From the NCBI RefSeq assembly GCF_022458985.1, contig NC_061772.1, positions 10,592,001-10,656,000 of the forward strand: a DNA stretch of 64,000 nucleotides. The letters run 5' to 3'. A model generated the notes under the pieces. It was given only the letters and a program-made list of their open reading frames with translations, had not been told where the DNA came from and ran no database searches. Below, piece by piece: positions 42,096 through 49,600 of this stretch (position 1 is its first letter; each line of letters opens with the position of its first letter). Source of the DNA: Mugil cephalus. Its lineage: Eukaryota; Chordata; Actinopteri; Mugiliformes; Mugilidae. The position numbers and the translations under genes are program-made.

Positions 42096-42451
42096 TGACT
42101 CAACATGTTTTAATATAATGCTGTCAAATACAAAATTTAAGTGAGGGCATCTTAGGAGCATTAAATAGAAAGGGGGTGCTAGGGGGCTGTTGTCTGATTT
42201 ATATTTAACCACATGTGTACCTTATTAACTAACCTCTCTTTTTACTTCAGTTGTCTCAACTGTAAGAAATAAAATGCCTCCCCTGCACCACAGTCAAAAT
42301 TACCAAACGTTTTCAGTGTTTTCAAAATGGTGAATATCCAACATCTATATTTTGATATATTTTAAGAGAGATGATGACGCAAAATTAAGCATACACAACT
42401 TTTTACAAGCTGAATGCTTGTGGGTTGTAGTGAATATGGTATAACGGTCCC
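42096..42451. other. Spacer at 3' end of first MADF gene
   Basis: AT-rich and noncoding by eye. It presumably contains the 3' UTR of the minus-strand MADF-BESS gene. No strong minus-strand AATAAA is seen close to the stop. Confidence 0.4.
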
Positions 42452-43973
42452 TTATAAATCCTTCAGAGCTCTTTGGTCCTCAAACTCTGCAGCATAAAGC
42501 ACTTGCTGGAATTTCATCCGCACTTCCATTCTTTTTTTAATGGTAAGCCTCTTTAGTGAGGGCAGGAGACTAAGCAGAAAGAGTTCATCTTCATCTCTGA
42601 GGTTGGTGAGGCCTTCGGCTGAACTTATCTCAGTCTGTGTGGTTGTTTGCCTTTTGCGTTTATGAGACGGTCCTGAATCGTGATGGTTGGTTTGACATTG
42701 CTCCACAAGAGGAACACTTGTACTAACAACAGGTACCAGCACAGAGCTGCACAGTGTCTTCTCGTCTTTATCTTCCTCTTCCTCCGGTTCACCTGCCCTT
42801 TCAGATACCTGTGGTGCATGAGAACAAAATAGTTACTGGTTAACACACACAACACCTCACTGATAACAACCTTCATTTTACTGGGTGATCACGAGCAAAC
42901 ACATCAAGTGATTCTCACAGTAAAAACTGTTGGCAAAACCATTTATATTCAAACTAAAATATTAAAACGAAAAACTTGATTATGATTTCCAAATATTTTC
43001 TCTGTCGCTTATTAAACATCAGGATTATATCACCACAGATATATCCGTAGAGAAATGCAAAGGTTTCATCTGAGATAATTTAGAGTCTGTGCCCACGGTT
43101 GTTTCCAGTTGAGCCACAGACTGATCACACCCACGCACCAGGTCTAAAATGAGTTTAATCATATATATATATAGTTGCGTGTGTGGGCATGTTTTTCCTA
43201 TTTTCTAGATCCTATATTGGGCATCACTACTTTTTGTCAAACTATTTGCCATCGTTTAGAGGAGGGTTATGTTGACTGATCACATATTTATGATGCGTAT
43301 TCAGATATATAAAACCCTAATTTGAAAATGTCTAAAGCTAAAACATCTCTCTCTTTTAGCCTCGAAAATTAAATATCTGTGGTTCCTCATATTATAAGCT
43401 GGCTGTTGACGTCAAACGGCTTTTATTTTGAAAAACTGAAGCGCGTGTTGATGTGACTGGACGTTTTCAAGGGTTTTTGCCTTTCAGGAAATCACAGCTG
43501 ATGACTAACTTTGTACCGATTAAATATGATGGCGGTAGTCAACATTAGTTAGCTAAGGAGGCTAAGCTAACACGGCGTGTCAACGTGACAGCATATCTCC
43601 GTGGACGACGCACGGACGAACACACCTGTCCGGGCTCCCTCATGCTGCGCTCTACTCTGGGTTTGACATAGGCGCTGAGCCAGGCCAGCTGGTTGTACAG
43701 CACCGGGACCTGCCTCTCTACCGGGTTGTCGTCTTCGTCGCCTTCCAGCAGGGGGACATTTCTCTTGACGAGTCGCTTCTTCGCTTTACAGAACTTGTCG
43801 CGTAGGTTTTTCCATTTCAGTTTCACCTCTTCCTCCGACTTTCCCATGGCGACCGCGATCTCTTTCCAGGACAGATGTCCCTTCAGGTTGTCTTTGTAGT
43901 CCCGCCGGGACTGGTCGTACAGATTCGGGTGTTCGCGTATCAAGTCCGCCAGTTTCTTTTCGACGGTGTTCAT
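42452..43973 (-). CDS. MADF-BESS domain protein
   Basis: Probable DNA-binding transcriptional regulator or transposon-derived factor, likely nuclear. Two exons: 43973-43626 (116 codons) and 42808-42452, with donor GTGTGT and acceptor caccacag, phase 0. Total 234 aa. MADF (Myb/SANT-like helix set) spans about residues 5-100: KLADLIREHPNLYD, WKEIAVAMG, LKWKNLRDKFCKAKKR, then PVLYNQLAWLSAYVKPR. An acidic linker (120-133) and a basic HKRKRQ (165-170) precede a BESS motif at about 188-225 (DEDELFLLSLLPSLKRL). MADF-BESS proteins are numerous in fish and flies. I cannot assign an orthologue. A sister gene lies 2.1 kb away in the same orientation with a transposase relic between, suggesting an origin linked to PIF/Harbinger. 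Confidence 0.85.
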
Positions 43974-44565
43974 TTTGTTTTACTACCACAGCGAAGCCCT
44001 TTCGTCGGCAGACAACGACCTCGGTTCGTTTTCTCGGCTCACGTCGCCAGAAGGAAGTGCGAAGCTGCAGATATTCAAAATAAAACCACTGCCACAACGC
44101 CTTGCCTCCTGTTGGCTTTTATTAACACATTCTGTTTGGAAAATGTGAACGGCAAATGCTCACACAATTATGATACATGGTACTTTCATTTAAAGCAGCA
44201 GCACACGATTTCAAATGGGAAACTTACAGCAAAAAATTAGTGTATTATGATGACAGGGTTATTACAGCACACCAAGAACAGATAAATATGTTTGTTCTCT
44301 CTCGGTGGCAAGAACAAGAACAACATTATGGCCAGGTCATTCATATCTTACAAGAAACCACAGACTGTAAACTCAAGTGTAGAATATCTGGGAAGTCATC
44401 ATGGGAGCCCTGTCTGACACTGATTCACAGAGAAACTATAACAGCAACATGTTTGAAGCAGAGGAGCAGGAACATTTGTTATCATTTGTGATTGCAAAGG
44501 AAATGGATAAAAATCTGAGCGTGTCTGACCACTCAATACAACCAGAGCTGAGCACGGTGAGTACA

Positions 44566-45100
44566 GTGTCGTGGTTCAACAGATGGAGGAGATGGACGAC
44601 GAGAGGCACGCTTCTTATTTTAGGAAGTCGGCCAGTTGTTTTGATGACCTTATCTGTCAGATCACGCCGTTCATTCAGCATGCACCCACACGCAGTCTGC
44701 CGATCTGGACCCATGAAAGATTAGCTCTCACATCGCTAATATTCTACATATGGGAGCTCCGAGGTGACCAAGGCGATCTGGCGGGGTTTGAAATATGACG
44801 TTGAGGCCGTTCCCTCGTCGGGACAGATGGGTGACATCACCCAGGACTTTTGAAGGCCGCTGAACTTTCCTAATTTTGTTGGGGCTATCGATGGGTAACG
44901 TGGTCAGCACACTCTGTTGTTTTGATGGCTCTGTGTGATCACGATTCACGATGGTTGACATCAGGGCTTATGGCAAAGGAAGCGAGGGTAGTGCCTGAGA
45001 AGACCTCCTTAGGGTCTACTCTCAAGAATAGATGAATATTTTTGCATCCACCGGCAAATGCCCCTGGCACTACTGTCAAGACTCCATGTGAGTTTTTGTG
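44566..45100 (+). pseudogene. PIF/Harbinger (HARBI1-like) transposase relic
   Basis: Broken remains of a DDE nuclease. The largest open piece (44571-44798) carries DDERHASYFRKSASCFDDLI and PTRSLPIWTHERLALTSLIF, the N-terminal helical region of Harbinger transposases. After an internal deletion come FPSSGQMGDITQDF and NFPNFVGAIDG (about 44800-44895), which hold the first catalytic Asp. In a shifted frame follow FTMVDIRAYGKGSEGS (about 44940-44995) and PPANAPGTTVKTP (about 45048-45090). Several stops and at least two frame changes interrupt it, and the rest of the catalytic core is missing. It is certainly non-functional as a transposase. Family placement is by motif memory. Confidence 0.75.
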
Positions 45101-46062
45101 AGTTGTTGCATTTCACCTGTATTTAAATCTCATGTACTCCTATTTATTTTTGTCTTGACACGTGATATTCCTATACTCTTACTATTATTTTTATAGAACT
45201 GAACATATATGATAGCAGATATGTTTGTTTATTGTCCCCCCATTAACTGAATAAAAGTGAGCTGCATGTCAAAACTGTGAAAGGTCAAATAAAAGGCTTA
45301 ACTTCAGTTTCACACCTTGGCTCAGATAACAGACAACTGTATCTTTCCTTTCTCGGTCTCACTCATCTGTTTCTGTTCCTCTGTTTTCTCTACATGCACT
45401 GAACACTTTTATATAAGTGTCATAATGTTAAGATTTTGGCTTTGTATTTATTTGATCTCTGTGATGTGGTTCAGTTGTTAGTCTAATGCTTTAATGAAGA
45501 TGTTAAACAATAATAATTGTATTTTGGCAACAAAAAAAATGCATAAAAATAAGGCTTTATGAAAACAGTTAAAGAAAACTTTCTTGGTTAAATTAGTTTA
45601 AAATATTTGGGAGCCATAAGAGCCGGAGGAGCAGAGTCTTTCCATCACTTAAGAGTCTCAATGTTTACGGACTGAAATGCACAAACATGATTGGCTGACT
45701 GTGATCACCTGGGATGGCCTGGCTCGCTTGCAATTGGTTTGTGCGTTTCCTTATCCACTAAACCACTACCGAAAGCGGCCCGTTTTAAATCGTAACCTTT
45801 TGTTTTGGTTGTAGGTCCGAGAATATGGGACGACTTCTGGGACCAGAACCCGACCGCGGGAGTCCCCTGTCAGTGACCTATGGTGCAAAAGGTTTGTCTC
45901 ATGTCGGGACACGTTGTGACCACTGAATAGGTATGAAAAGCCAGTTTTTGCACATTATGCACAGGTGTCATTCTGACAGAGGAGTTGATCTACAGTTACC
46001 ACCACTCTCGTGCATCATATGACTTTATTGTTTACATACATCAGGTGGGCACCATTGCTTAC
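45101..46062. other. Spacer between transposase relic and second MADF gene
   Basis: AT-rich. I searched the minus strand here for a second exon of the 46063-46395 gene and found no BESS-like segment. A plus-strand stretch after a tag acceptor at about 45815 (RIWDDFWDQNPTAGVPCQ then stop) is unassigned. Confidence 0.4.
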
Positions 46063-46395
46063 CTCGGTGTGTGACACAGTCCTGTTGGGGATGGTTTCAC
46101 GGTGTTTAATGTGAGCGTCGAGCCACTGCAGCGAGGTGTACAGGAGTGGGATTGTTTTCCTCCCGTCGGGGTCACAATTCTTTTTTATTTGTACACGCCG
46201 TTTGGCCTTTGCGAATTTGTCGCGAAGGTATCTCCATCTTTTGCGACAGACGCGCTCCTCTGTGCACAAGGTTCGGGCTACCTCTTTCCACGTGTTATTA
46301 GCCATTTGCGTGTCTTTGTGTTCCTTGGAAGATGTATCATACAGGTTATCATATTTCCTCACCTCCTCGGCCAGCTTCGCCTCAAAACGATCCAT
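46015..46395 (-). CDS. Second MADF-domain protein (possibly truncated)
   Basis: The open frame starts at ATG 46393-46395. Residues 1-111 form a MADF domain (KLAEEVRKYDNLYD, TWKEVARTL, RKRWRYLRDKFAKAKRR, IPLLYTSLQWLDAHIK). At 46062 there is a GTAAGC donor in phase 0, matching the intron position and phase of the neighbouring MADF-BESS gene (identity is clear by eye over the domain, low elsewhere). No second exon was found downstream. Read through, the frame ends 15 codons later at 46015 and overlaps an AATAAA on the minus strand (46024-46029), so a 126-aa MADF-only protein ending in intron sequence is possible. Confidence 0.7.
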   Translation of the reverse strand: MDRFEAKLAEEVRKYDNLYDTSSKEHKDTQMANNTWKEVARTLCTEERVCRKRWRYLRDKFAKAKRRVQIKKNCDPDGRKTIPLLYTSLQWLDAHIKHRETIPNRTVSHTEVSNGAHLMYVNNKVI

Positions 46396-46510
46396 CGTTC
46401 AGCCAGAAGAAGGACCGAAATGACAACATTTCCGCATCACCCATTTCTGACCAATCACAGAATAGCTGTAAACCGCGCGAGAGAAAAGTTCTGCCCAGGC
46501 GACGTGTTCG

Positions 46511-46615
46511 AAAACGTCGAGAACAAGCTGCGAGAACCTTGGCGAGAACTCCCAGATGAGGGCCGTTAGTTATCGCGAGAACAGAATGATGTCTTTATTT
46601 CGTCGAGAGAACAAA
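46511..46615. promoter_or_regulatory. CGAGAAC cluster upstream of second MADF gene
   Basis: Within about 100 bp, CGAGAAC occurs at 46518, 46531, 46543 and 46576, with a near copy (CGAGAGAAC) at 46604. The fourth lies in TATCGCGAGA (46571-46580), similar to the TCTCGCGAGA promoter element. The region begins about 120 bp upstream of the ATG on the minus strand, so it is a plausible promoter. Confidence 0.5.
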
Positions 46616-46629
46616 TTTGTGTTCTTGCG

Positions 46630-49600
46630 GAGCATGAAACCAGTCACAATGAGCCGAAAATTAAAGGCAGATTGAAAGCACATCTTTTAAATTCATGTTA
46701 AAATGTGTGCGAGTTCATGTTAGATGTCAAGAAAAGGCAGCTGTCAAACTCAAGTTTAGATTGATTCCAGATTTTGACTCCGCTGTGTTACCCGTCTTTC
46801 TACGTTAGGTGGCGTATTTGCTCTTTTCTATTTTCTATTTCTGCTGTCTCAGTTAGTAGCAGAGAGGTTTCAGTAAACCAGGAGTGCTTGGTCCTGGATC
46901 AGCTCTTTTCTCTTTCTTAAATATAAAAATATTTGTATTGTTTAAAAATGAGGCCACGTGATGTTTTCTGTTTAATTTTTCTCTATGTGTCCCTGGGGCT
47001 TAAAAATATTTGTATTTATGCAACTGAAATATAACAGTCGTAAGCACACGCCAGGAGAGCTGGTTGTGGTACATATTTAACATGACATAACATGATAATG
47101 AAAATATCATTAAAAATACAGCAGTTCATGATAAACCGTGTGGCTGGAGTTTTATTTATAAATGAATGAATGTGTGCGTAAGCTGCAGTCAAGGTTGTCC
47201 GTGTCACTTCATGTTTCCTGGGCTGATATTTGTGTTAAAATAACCACATTTGGCCTGAAAGCCAACATGTAAACCCTGGCTGCACTAACCCTTAGTTTTA
47301 CCATATTTGGATGCAGCCTGCGTGGAGTCAGTTCAGAGCTTCTTCTGGGGGAAAACCTGTGATTGTCAAAGGCCAGAATTTAAAAACAAGCTAATTTAAA
47401 TCATTTAAAATGGTAACCACATCAAGACTCCAGGTGGGTGTGATGAATACTTACATCAGAGCATCAGATTTCATTTACATGTGCCGAGCTGTGATAGATC
47501 AAACATCGTCTCTGCTGGAGGCAGTCTAAGTGTCACCTGGAAGACTCAGTACAGATTACAGGGACAGCACAATGGATAACAGCAATTAGAGGACATCGGC
47601 TATTATCATAGGGATGTCACATGTGACTGCACACAGTGACTATTATAGTGTAACTGTCTAGACTACCTACATAAGTCCCACAAGAGGTGGCACACCGTTA
47701 TTATTGGGATCCAGAGTCAAGACACATTAATTTAAAGGGATGACACTGATTATATGTATACAGCAAACAACAACCCTATTTTATTTATATTTAACTGATA
47801 AACAAGCAGAGTTGTTGATACATATCTTATGACAAATAGATGTGGCCGCTATTTAATGACTTTTCATTTTATTTGCTAAGAAATCTGATTATATATGAGA
47901 ATTCAATGCATGTTTTCAGTCTTTGGGTTTTGTTTTATTGGGGCGATTAACCCAGTAATAAGGAAACATTTTCATCAGATCAACATCTCAATGCTGCAAC
48001 GTTTGTAGCGGGCCGCCCATCAGCTGAGAGTCCATGTGTTCCTGCTGCATGAGCTGAAGCAGCAAGTTTCCTTCTGGTAACGTGAGACCTCGTCAGATAG
48101 AATAATACAACTTTGCAGATAATGAAAGATGCGTGATTTTTGTCTGTGAGGTGAAGAGACACAGTCGGCGAAATGCCAGTTTGTCTACTTACTTTGTATC
48201 ATGTCTCTATTTTACATCTACTGTGCACGTGAAGACTTACATTTCGGGTATGTCTAATTTACTCATCAGCTCTTGTTGCAGATGTCTCCACAGACACAGC
48301 TTGTAGTCAAGAGAGAACAACATTGACAGCAACAATCGGCACATTTTGCCAACATTCGGACAACAATTACCTAGAGGGAGCCAAAGACACTCAGACCAGC
48401 ACACACACACAAACAGTCAAAATCAAGTACAAGCACAACAGGGTTGCAGCATGGGCTTAGTCATGACAAAACATCCACTTGATAGAGATTTTCCTTCTTG
48501 GGTTTATAAATTCTATATGTTGACATTTTGCAGCTCTCGTTTCATGTATTTCTGCAGGTTTTAACAAATCAAGCTGCTGAATTTGTCCAGAACAAACACC
48601 TCATTTACTTTGACAAATGGTTTCTGCTGCTGCTGTGTTGTAGCCGAGATACAGTTTAATTTGTGTGTAGCATCAACCATATACAACACATGATGACTGC
48701 ACAGATCCACCGCAGGGACAGACAGTAACCTGCTCTAAGCATTTAGATGGGATGAGTCGCTCTCTGCCTGCCAGGCGGCCCAGGAATTTGAACCGCTGAC
48801 CCTCTGGTCACGAGGTCACTGCTACGAACATTTGGCTACTGTCCTCCACAAATGTTTAGATTCTGTGCTCTGCTGTTTGCATGCTTGTCCTCGCTGCCCT
48901 GTCGGAGTATCCTGTTGCATGGTGAACCCGAAAGTTTCCAGTGAGTTTAAAATAACACAGTTCGTTTGAAATAAGCGCATGTTTGGGAAGGCTGCCACAG
49001 TCTCGATACAAACAAATTGGTTTGTGTCCATAATGCTGTTTGTCGGCCGTGTTATCTCCCCTACGGTGGGAGACTCCGCATCCCAAGTCGTCTGGACAAA
49101 CACTTTCTCCGGGCCACACACACATCCTCTGAAGTGAGAGTGACATATTTATCGTCAGAGGAAAGGAGGAGGGAGAGCGGAGAAGAGATACACTGCCTAA
49201 AAACAGACACTACGCAGGTACTCGTAGATAAATCTGTGAGTAAGTGTCCGTGTGAGCCACGTGATGCAGATCTGTGAAATGGCAGGATCAGTAAATACCT
49301 TTAATAAAGAAATTTGGAGACTAACCTCTAACTGCTCTCACAGTTGCCACAGTGTTGCCAAGGAAACGCGGCAATTTTATCATTCTCGACTAAACCTGAT
49401 AATCTGTATATCTGGTGAGAAGGAGAGTCATTTTCCAACCGAGTCATCCTTCGGTATCGCTCAGTGCGTATGTGTGTATGTGTTGTTACAGAGCAGCTCT
49501 TTCCCAGACCAGTGATAAGTGTCACCTCAGTGGGGGCTTTAACACCTGGGTTGGTGTAAAGGAGGCCCGGAGGATGGAGGGGTGGGGGGTGAGAAGTCTG

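Follow-up and report, generated by a model that had tools for sequence, protein, structure and literature searches.

In this study we analysed a window of 64,000 bases from Mugil cephalus (contig 3, positions 10592001–10656000 of a genome of 634.8 Mb in 24 contigs; "the window" denotes this whole stretch), which contains two genes with a MADF domain, MADF1 and MADF2, and the relic of a transposase gene. Our results indicate that positions 44256–46645 represent a single old, decayed PIF/Harbinger-type element, which holds the transposase relic and MADF2 between its two ends, and that MADF1 is a separate gene located outside the left end. We assign this reading a probability of roughly 0.75. Loci fetched from the same genome for comparison carry L-numbers. 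Numbers of placements in the genome refer to the best-scoring candidates only and are lower bounds. The features of the locus are as follows.

42300–44245, no strand: stretch bearing MADF1, without a second copy in the genome (the DNA search returned one candidate, the stretch itself)
42452–42808, minus strand: MADF1 exon 2 with the BESS motif, stop codon included; acceptor ACCACAG/GTATCT; Pfam BESS E = 1.4e-12
43626–43973, minus strand: MADF1 exon 1 with the MADF domain, 116 codons; phase-0 donor CAG/GTGTGT; Pfam MADF E = 6.4e-13
44256–46645, no strand: decayed PIF/Harbinger-type element of family A, 2390 bases, flanked by the triplets ACA and ACA; limits from the copy consensus and the scores of the terminal inverted repeats (TIRs)
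44256–44297, plus strand: left TIR, degraded, TIR score 26
about 44383–45100, plus strand: transposase relic, in pieces in different frames and with stops
45190–45890, no strand: dispersed repeat D, which seems to lie nested within the element; the limits are approximate, the nesting is inferred and parts are common to L087–L090
46063–46395, minus strand: open MADF exon of MADF2, 111 codons; Pfam MADF E = 9.4e-14; followed by GTAAGC, with the frame open to 46015
46604–46645, minus strand: right TIR, TIR score 40

The ends of the element were recognized both by a TIR model and by comparison with dispersed copies of the same family, which has many short derivatives in the genome. The scores of the TIR model at 44256 and 46645 exceed those of all 200 background draws, the highest of which was 20. 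The consensus of 19 short copies aligned to window positions 44242–44411, 44588–44759 and 46440–46538, and its left end, when inverted, matched positions 46643–46608. In 7 of the 19 fetched copies, the match to 44588–44759 was followed after only 25–90 bases by a match to 46440–46537, a region located beyond MADF2. The DNA encoding the N-terminal part of the relic was found at 38 other placements with 71–83% identity (among the best 40 of 123 candidates), and each of the 68 matches of the relic protein outside the window was confined to this N-terminal piece. Among the best-scoring candidates, the fetched copies hold either the start of the transposase or the start of the MADF gene; both are present only in the window copy. 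The preliminary description of this locus had proposed a search for terminal repeats and 3-bp target duplications. TIR-like ends were indeed found, with ACA on either flank, and they leave MADF1 outside.

For a characterization of the target sites, the junctions of 26 other family A copies were inspected. A recognizable TIR was present at 30 of the 52 ends. At 19 of these 30 ends, TTA or TAA occurred within five junction bases, compared with 10.7% of the window positions (P = 6e-12). Both ends were recognizable in nine copies, four of which showed TTA or TAA on both sides if a shift of one base was allowed. With the boundary placed exactly where the TIR model sets it, identical flanking triplets were not seen in any of the 26 copies, so that a target duplication becomes visible only with this one-base shift.

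MADF2 belongs to the element. A search of the genome with the MADF2 protein yielded 17 matches, of which MADF2 itself, a gene on contig 11 and MADF1 were strong and 14 were weak. Among the weak matches, L065, L066 and L068 are placed between left and right family A sequences. Four further loci (L078–L081) came from a DNA search with the right end as part of the query; hence, for these loci the left side alone provides an independent test. In all seven loci with a strong DNA match, the start of MADF2 (window positions about 46275–46400) had family A sequence on both sides. The presence of a MADF2-like start between family A sequences in seven other decayed copies indicates that MADF2 is the second gene of the element. 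Two loci with a weak DNA match to this start, L064 and L077, are without family A ends and instead have DNA in common with the contig 11 locus. Three more weak MADF2-like loci (L069, L070 and L074) have 68–88 bases in common and perhaps represent a fourth MADF repeat family.

The relic consists of an N-terminal piece within 44529–44760, a piece reading FPNFVGAIDG at 44764–44895 and others extending to about 45100. We take FPNxxGAIDG to be a motif of Harbinger transposases, and the pieces of the relic read similarly. The FPNFVGAID region could be aligned with L040, a locus with a DDE_Tnp_4 match, with a z value of 5.1 and a score of 51; the best of 200 shuffles scored 44. Several observations weigh against our interpretation of the element. 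The window copy is flanked by ACA on both sides and not by TTA, and the lack of identical triplets at the exact boundaries of the other copies has to be counted here as well. Pfam searches with the relic pieces, their read-through and the family A N-terminus revealed nothing relevant, and the 142 DDE_Tnp_4 matches recorded for the genome (among the best 150 of 214 candidates) were all outside the window. The match to L040 is weak by BLASTP (E = 0.085) and phmmer (E = 0.17), and in one comparison three chance-like matches scored equal to or above it. No match at 1e-3 was obtained between the relic and 20 fetched DDE_Tnp_4 loci, and one EGF_4 match in the Pfam searches mentioned above was discarded as chance-like (E = 0.16). 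Direct protein similarity thus makes only a weak case for a DDE_Tnp_4 nuclease, and the assignment to PIF/Harbinger appears better supported by the structure of the element. The earlier claim of a dead Harbinger nuclease between the two genes holds as far as the broken plus-strand frame and the element around it are concerned; the similarity of the protein itself is weak.

In its active stage, the element would have followed the biology of its superfamily, i.e. the transposase would have cut and joined the element ends, and the MADF protein would have bound the element DNA and aided the entry of the transposase into the nucleus. Short copies with two ends may have been mobilized in trans. The copy in the window was most probably inserted upstream of MADF1, the start codon of which is 282 bases away from the left end.

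Most likely, MADF2 is an exon of the dead element that has stayed open, and not a working host gene. In a substitution test, the first 37 codons of MADF2 (30 of them usable) were compared with the majority of the seven dead copies. Seven nonsynonymous and three synonymous differences were counted, which equals the neutral expectation (P = 0.42), and the divergence from the dead copies did not differ significantly between the coding part (12/103) and the upstream part (23/119; P = 0.14). In addition, a profile built from three BESS motifs detected only the motif of MADF1 between 40001 and 47500, and a second exon of MADF2 was not found. These data make it unlikely that MADF2 was domesticated and has been retained by selection since the death of the element, although this possibility finds some support in the exon itself. 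Inside an otherwise broken element, the MADF exon of MADF2 is still open and gives a strong match in Pfam; in simulations, a frame of 333 bases remained free of stops in only 8–25% of cases at 20–10% divergence, and decay would thus be expected. No insertions or deletions (indels) were present in the covered coding part of MADF2 (its first 37 codons), compared with four in about 135 bases upstream, and the differences at codon positions 1, 2 and 3 numbered 3, 3 and 6, respectively. Together, the open exon and the absence of coding indels hint at constraint, contrary to what we propose. The ratio of observed to expected CpG dinucleotides (CpG o/e) was also raised at the MADF2 exon (1.02) and the right end (1.29) compared with the left end (0.14) and the window (0.49). 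However, this ratio ranged from 0.15 to 1.36 across the seven dead copies, and the highest value, that of L078, exceeds the value of MADF2.

MADF1 is an intact, single-copy and independent gene without element ends. Its two exons are separated by an intron (43625–42809, GT...AG, phase 0), and its product of 234 amino acids comprises an N-terminal MADF domain and a C-terminal BESS motif, both of which exceed the Pfam cut-off. This confirms two points of the preliminary description, which had recognized two MADF genes in the same orientation and an intact first protein with a BESS motif. A Pfam search of the whole genome gave four BESS matches, one of them weak; the single match in the window is that of MADF1. 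The combination of MADF and BESS is known from transcription factors of the Adf-1 kind. MADF1 appears to be built like these, with the MADF domain at the N-terminus and BESS at the C-terminus, but has no intron inside the MADF domain. Its product is probably a host DNA-binding regulator. Relatives of MADF1 could not be confirmed in two contig collections (genome_contigs and viral_contigs), and no solved structure resembled it at E values up to 1. Two ways of placing MADF1 inside an element were rejected. A left-hand family A copy is not supported, as no family A ends exceeding the shuffled background were detected around MADF1, and the best scores for the TIRs of family B (see below) were 16 and 15, at the level of the background median of 16.

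An alternative derives the relic and MADF1 from one captured element and regards MADF2 as a local duplicate of MADF1, as the preliminary description had suggested. The two genes are adjacent, have a common orientation and share a similar phase-0 donor shortly past the MADF domain; the GTAAGC following the MADF2 exon is in phase 0 at the place that matches the donor of MADF1. Since neither a second exon nor a BESS motif was found for MADF2, the similarity described earlier as a shared intron position and phase is reduced to a shared donor position. One pair of ends encloses the relic and MADF2 and leaves MADF1 outside. MADF1 and MADF2 are 38% identical (99 columns), and MADF1 is no closer to MADF2 than to the unlinked gene on contig 11, whose MADF domain is 43% identical to that of MADF1 (97 columns). 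The DNA upstream of MADF2 showed no similarity to that upstream of MADF1 beyond the shuffled background. The low identity and the lack of a second copy of the MADF1 region led us to reject local duplication, and we consider the whole scenario hardly credible. The idea of a captured transposon partner survives in part: the element of the relic does have a MADF partner gene, but this partner is MADF2 and not MADF1.

The ancestry of MADF1 itself is a different question. Nine Pfam MADF matches were found in the genome. MADF2 and the contig 11 gene span the domain; the match of MADF1 ends at position 64 of 84, and its frame continues through the remainder. The other six matches cover 36 to 53 positions and represent the first or the second half of the domain, suggesting that in these genes the domain is split by an intron. 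In MADF1, MADF2 and the contig 11 gene, on the other hand, the MADF domain is encoded by one exon, and a phase-0 GT is located 10 to 12 residues past the domain. All three genes also show similarity to MADF fragments of decayed repeats. The contig 11 gene (L001, 13642257–13642505) has an intact MADF exon flanked by inverted repeats of about 140 bases, which are 73% alike, and DNA of this locus is common with six other loci; possibly it is another transposon partner gene. Five of the loci found by MADF1 (L014, L015, L016, L018 and L020), here referred to as family B, align with one another over 124 to 704 bases with 71–85% identity. L014 has inverted repeats of 41 bases with TTG on both flanks, and the ends are less clear in the other four loci. 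Family B has 39 further placements (among the best 40 of 133 candidates). In family C, the ends were too indistinct to call target duplications. Separately, stretch 221–547 of the family B query matched five placements with 72% identity, four on contig 13 (1.48, 2.32, 2.59 and 2.61 Mb) and one on contig 3 (31.3 Mb); as all five match exactly this stretch, it suggests a separate amplified derivative.

The MADF fragments of four family B loci are 43–62% identical to MADF1 (32–64 columns) and 21–28% identical to MADF2. The unsplit MADF exon and this likeness to MADF fragments in decayed repeats make a transposon ancestry of MADF1 plausible, and we lean, with some reserve, towards MADF1 being an older host gene that arose in this way. 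The opposite view, that MADF1 is an ancestral host MADF–BESS gene never derived from a transposon and that the MADF sequences of family B were captured from the host or are distant kin, is a possibility we hold with more doubt. It would account for the absence of a second copy of MADF1 DNA and of element ends around the gene. The BESS motifs of MADF1 and of a gene on contig 19 share 60% identity across 42 residues, which likewise speaks against an origin from a transposon. Furthermore, a FastTree phylogeny, calculated from short fragments, joined MADF1 with MADF2 and the contig 11 gene (0.66) and left it outside family B. On the other hand, the unsplit MADF exon is common to MADF1 and the transposon genes, unlike in the six other MADF matches, and the family B fragment of L014 gave its highest score with MADF1 (48.9 bits, compared with 35.0 for the contig 11 gene and 27.7 for MADF2). 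A locus on contig 19 (L006, near 21147574), beside one of the other MADF matches, holds open frames that we assume to be similar to Tc1/mariner transposases.

The insertion beside MADF1 may have been non-random if family A elements or their MADF protein prefer promoters or MADF loci. In a genome of 635 Mb, the chance that any of 69 placements (the 68 matches of the relic protein and the window copy) falls less than 300 bases before or after a given start codon is about 7e-5, and the CpG-rich 5' region of MADF1 stops at the element: the CpG o/e is about 1 across exon 1 and the upstream region (43251–44250) and drops to 0.1 at the left end. Yet the number of 69 placements is a lower bound, the value of 7e-5 was computed after the fact, and a preference cannot be shown from a single case. 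We therefore regard a directed insertion as rather unlikely. Even more speculative, and in our judgement improbable, is the notion that MADF1, MADF2 and the contig 11 gene are the sole intact survivors of three different dead transposon families, retained as separate partner genes, and that the dead element in front of MADF1 has become a binding and promoter platform for cross-regulation by the MADF proteins.

The organization of the family A element resembles that of known systems. According to PMC9710019, PIF elements carry a second gene of the Myb/SANT/MADF type, and insects possess co-domesticated pairs of both genes; in PMC9179366, fish Harbinger elements with Myb-like proteins are described, and its main text never uses the word MADF. 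In common with the elements in these two reports, family A has inverted repeats, TTA or TAA at the ends, a transposase-like frame with a MADF-type second gene, and short derivatives retaining both ends. It differs in that the window element is decayed, its transposase is recognizable in pieces only and its second gene is a MADF gene by Pfam. The insect pairs DPLG7–DPM7, APLG–APM and LPLG2–LPM2, as presented in PMC9710019, likewise consist of a PIF-type transposase frame adjoining a MADF gene and trace back to one insertion. Unlike in these co-domesticated pairs, the transposase in the window is broken into pieces in different frames and with stops; thus, the MADF gene is the only partner that may have been retained.

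In fish, a MADF gene of the miiuy croaker, ADF-1L, which is located about 800 bases from the active 7SL gene 7SL-23 on chromosome 19, has been ascribed to PIF/Harbinger in a report that also names Adf-1 (PMC11893794). Again, a fish MADF gene adjoins PIF/Harbinger-like sequence. However, our data do not support an identity of the window locus with the published ADF-1L locus. No Rfam family reached its threshold in the window, where no 7SL gene was found, and the two siRNA targets of ADF-1L were absent from the window and from loci L001–L040 with up to two mismatches. At least 17 signal recognition particle (7SL) RNA genes were found elsewhere, on contigs 13 and 21 (among the best 26 of 9854 candidates). 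Among the genes matched, 15 of the 17 are on contig 13 (at 6.5 and 7.1–7.2 Mb), where 12 are clustered in about 34 kb, and two are on contig 21. In another study, MADF genes were left out for want of a transposase domain (PMC10027918). In the literature on MADF and Harbinger, the broader part of which was sampled in part, no further title dealt with MADF genes carried by transposons of fish.

These results show, from the copies within a single genome, a PIF/Harbinger-type family that has a true MADF gene as its second gene, and derivatives that retained either the start of the transposase or the start of the MADF gene. They also tell apart two neighbours that their adjacency makes look like one unit, namely a transposon equipped with a MADF gene and a separate MADF–BESS gene. 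If MADF1 and the contig 11 gene prove to be captured, a recurrent domestication of MADF genes alone would become testable in fish, complementing the insect pairs.

Ten open frames neighbouring the locus were scanned with Pfam. Five of them had matches, two to AAA helicase-type domains, two to RRM and one to PhzC-PhzF; no Pfam family was matched by the remaining five, and the RUFY2-like pieces near the locus had no Pfam match. We presume the neighbouring genes to include DNA2, PBLD, HNRNPH3 and RUFY2. The loci L087–L090 were considered as longer family A copies and rejected, as they share repeat D and have no family A ends. Part of repeat D (45392–45585) also matches contig 2 many times, at 29.8–30.2 Mb.

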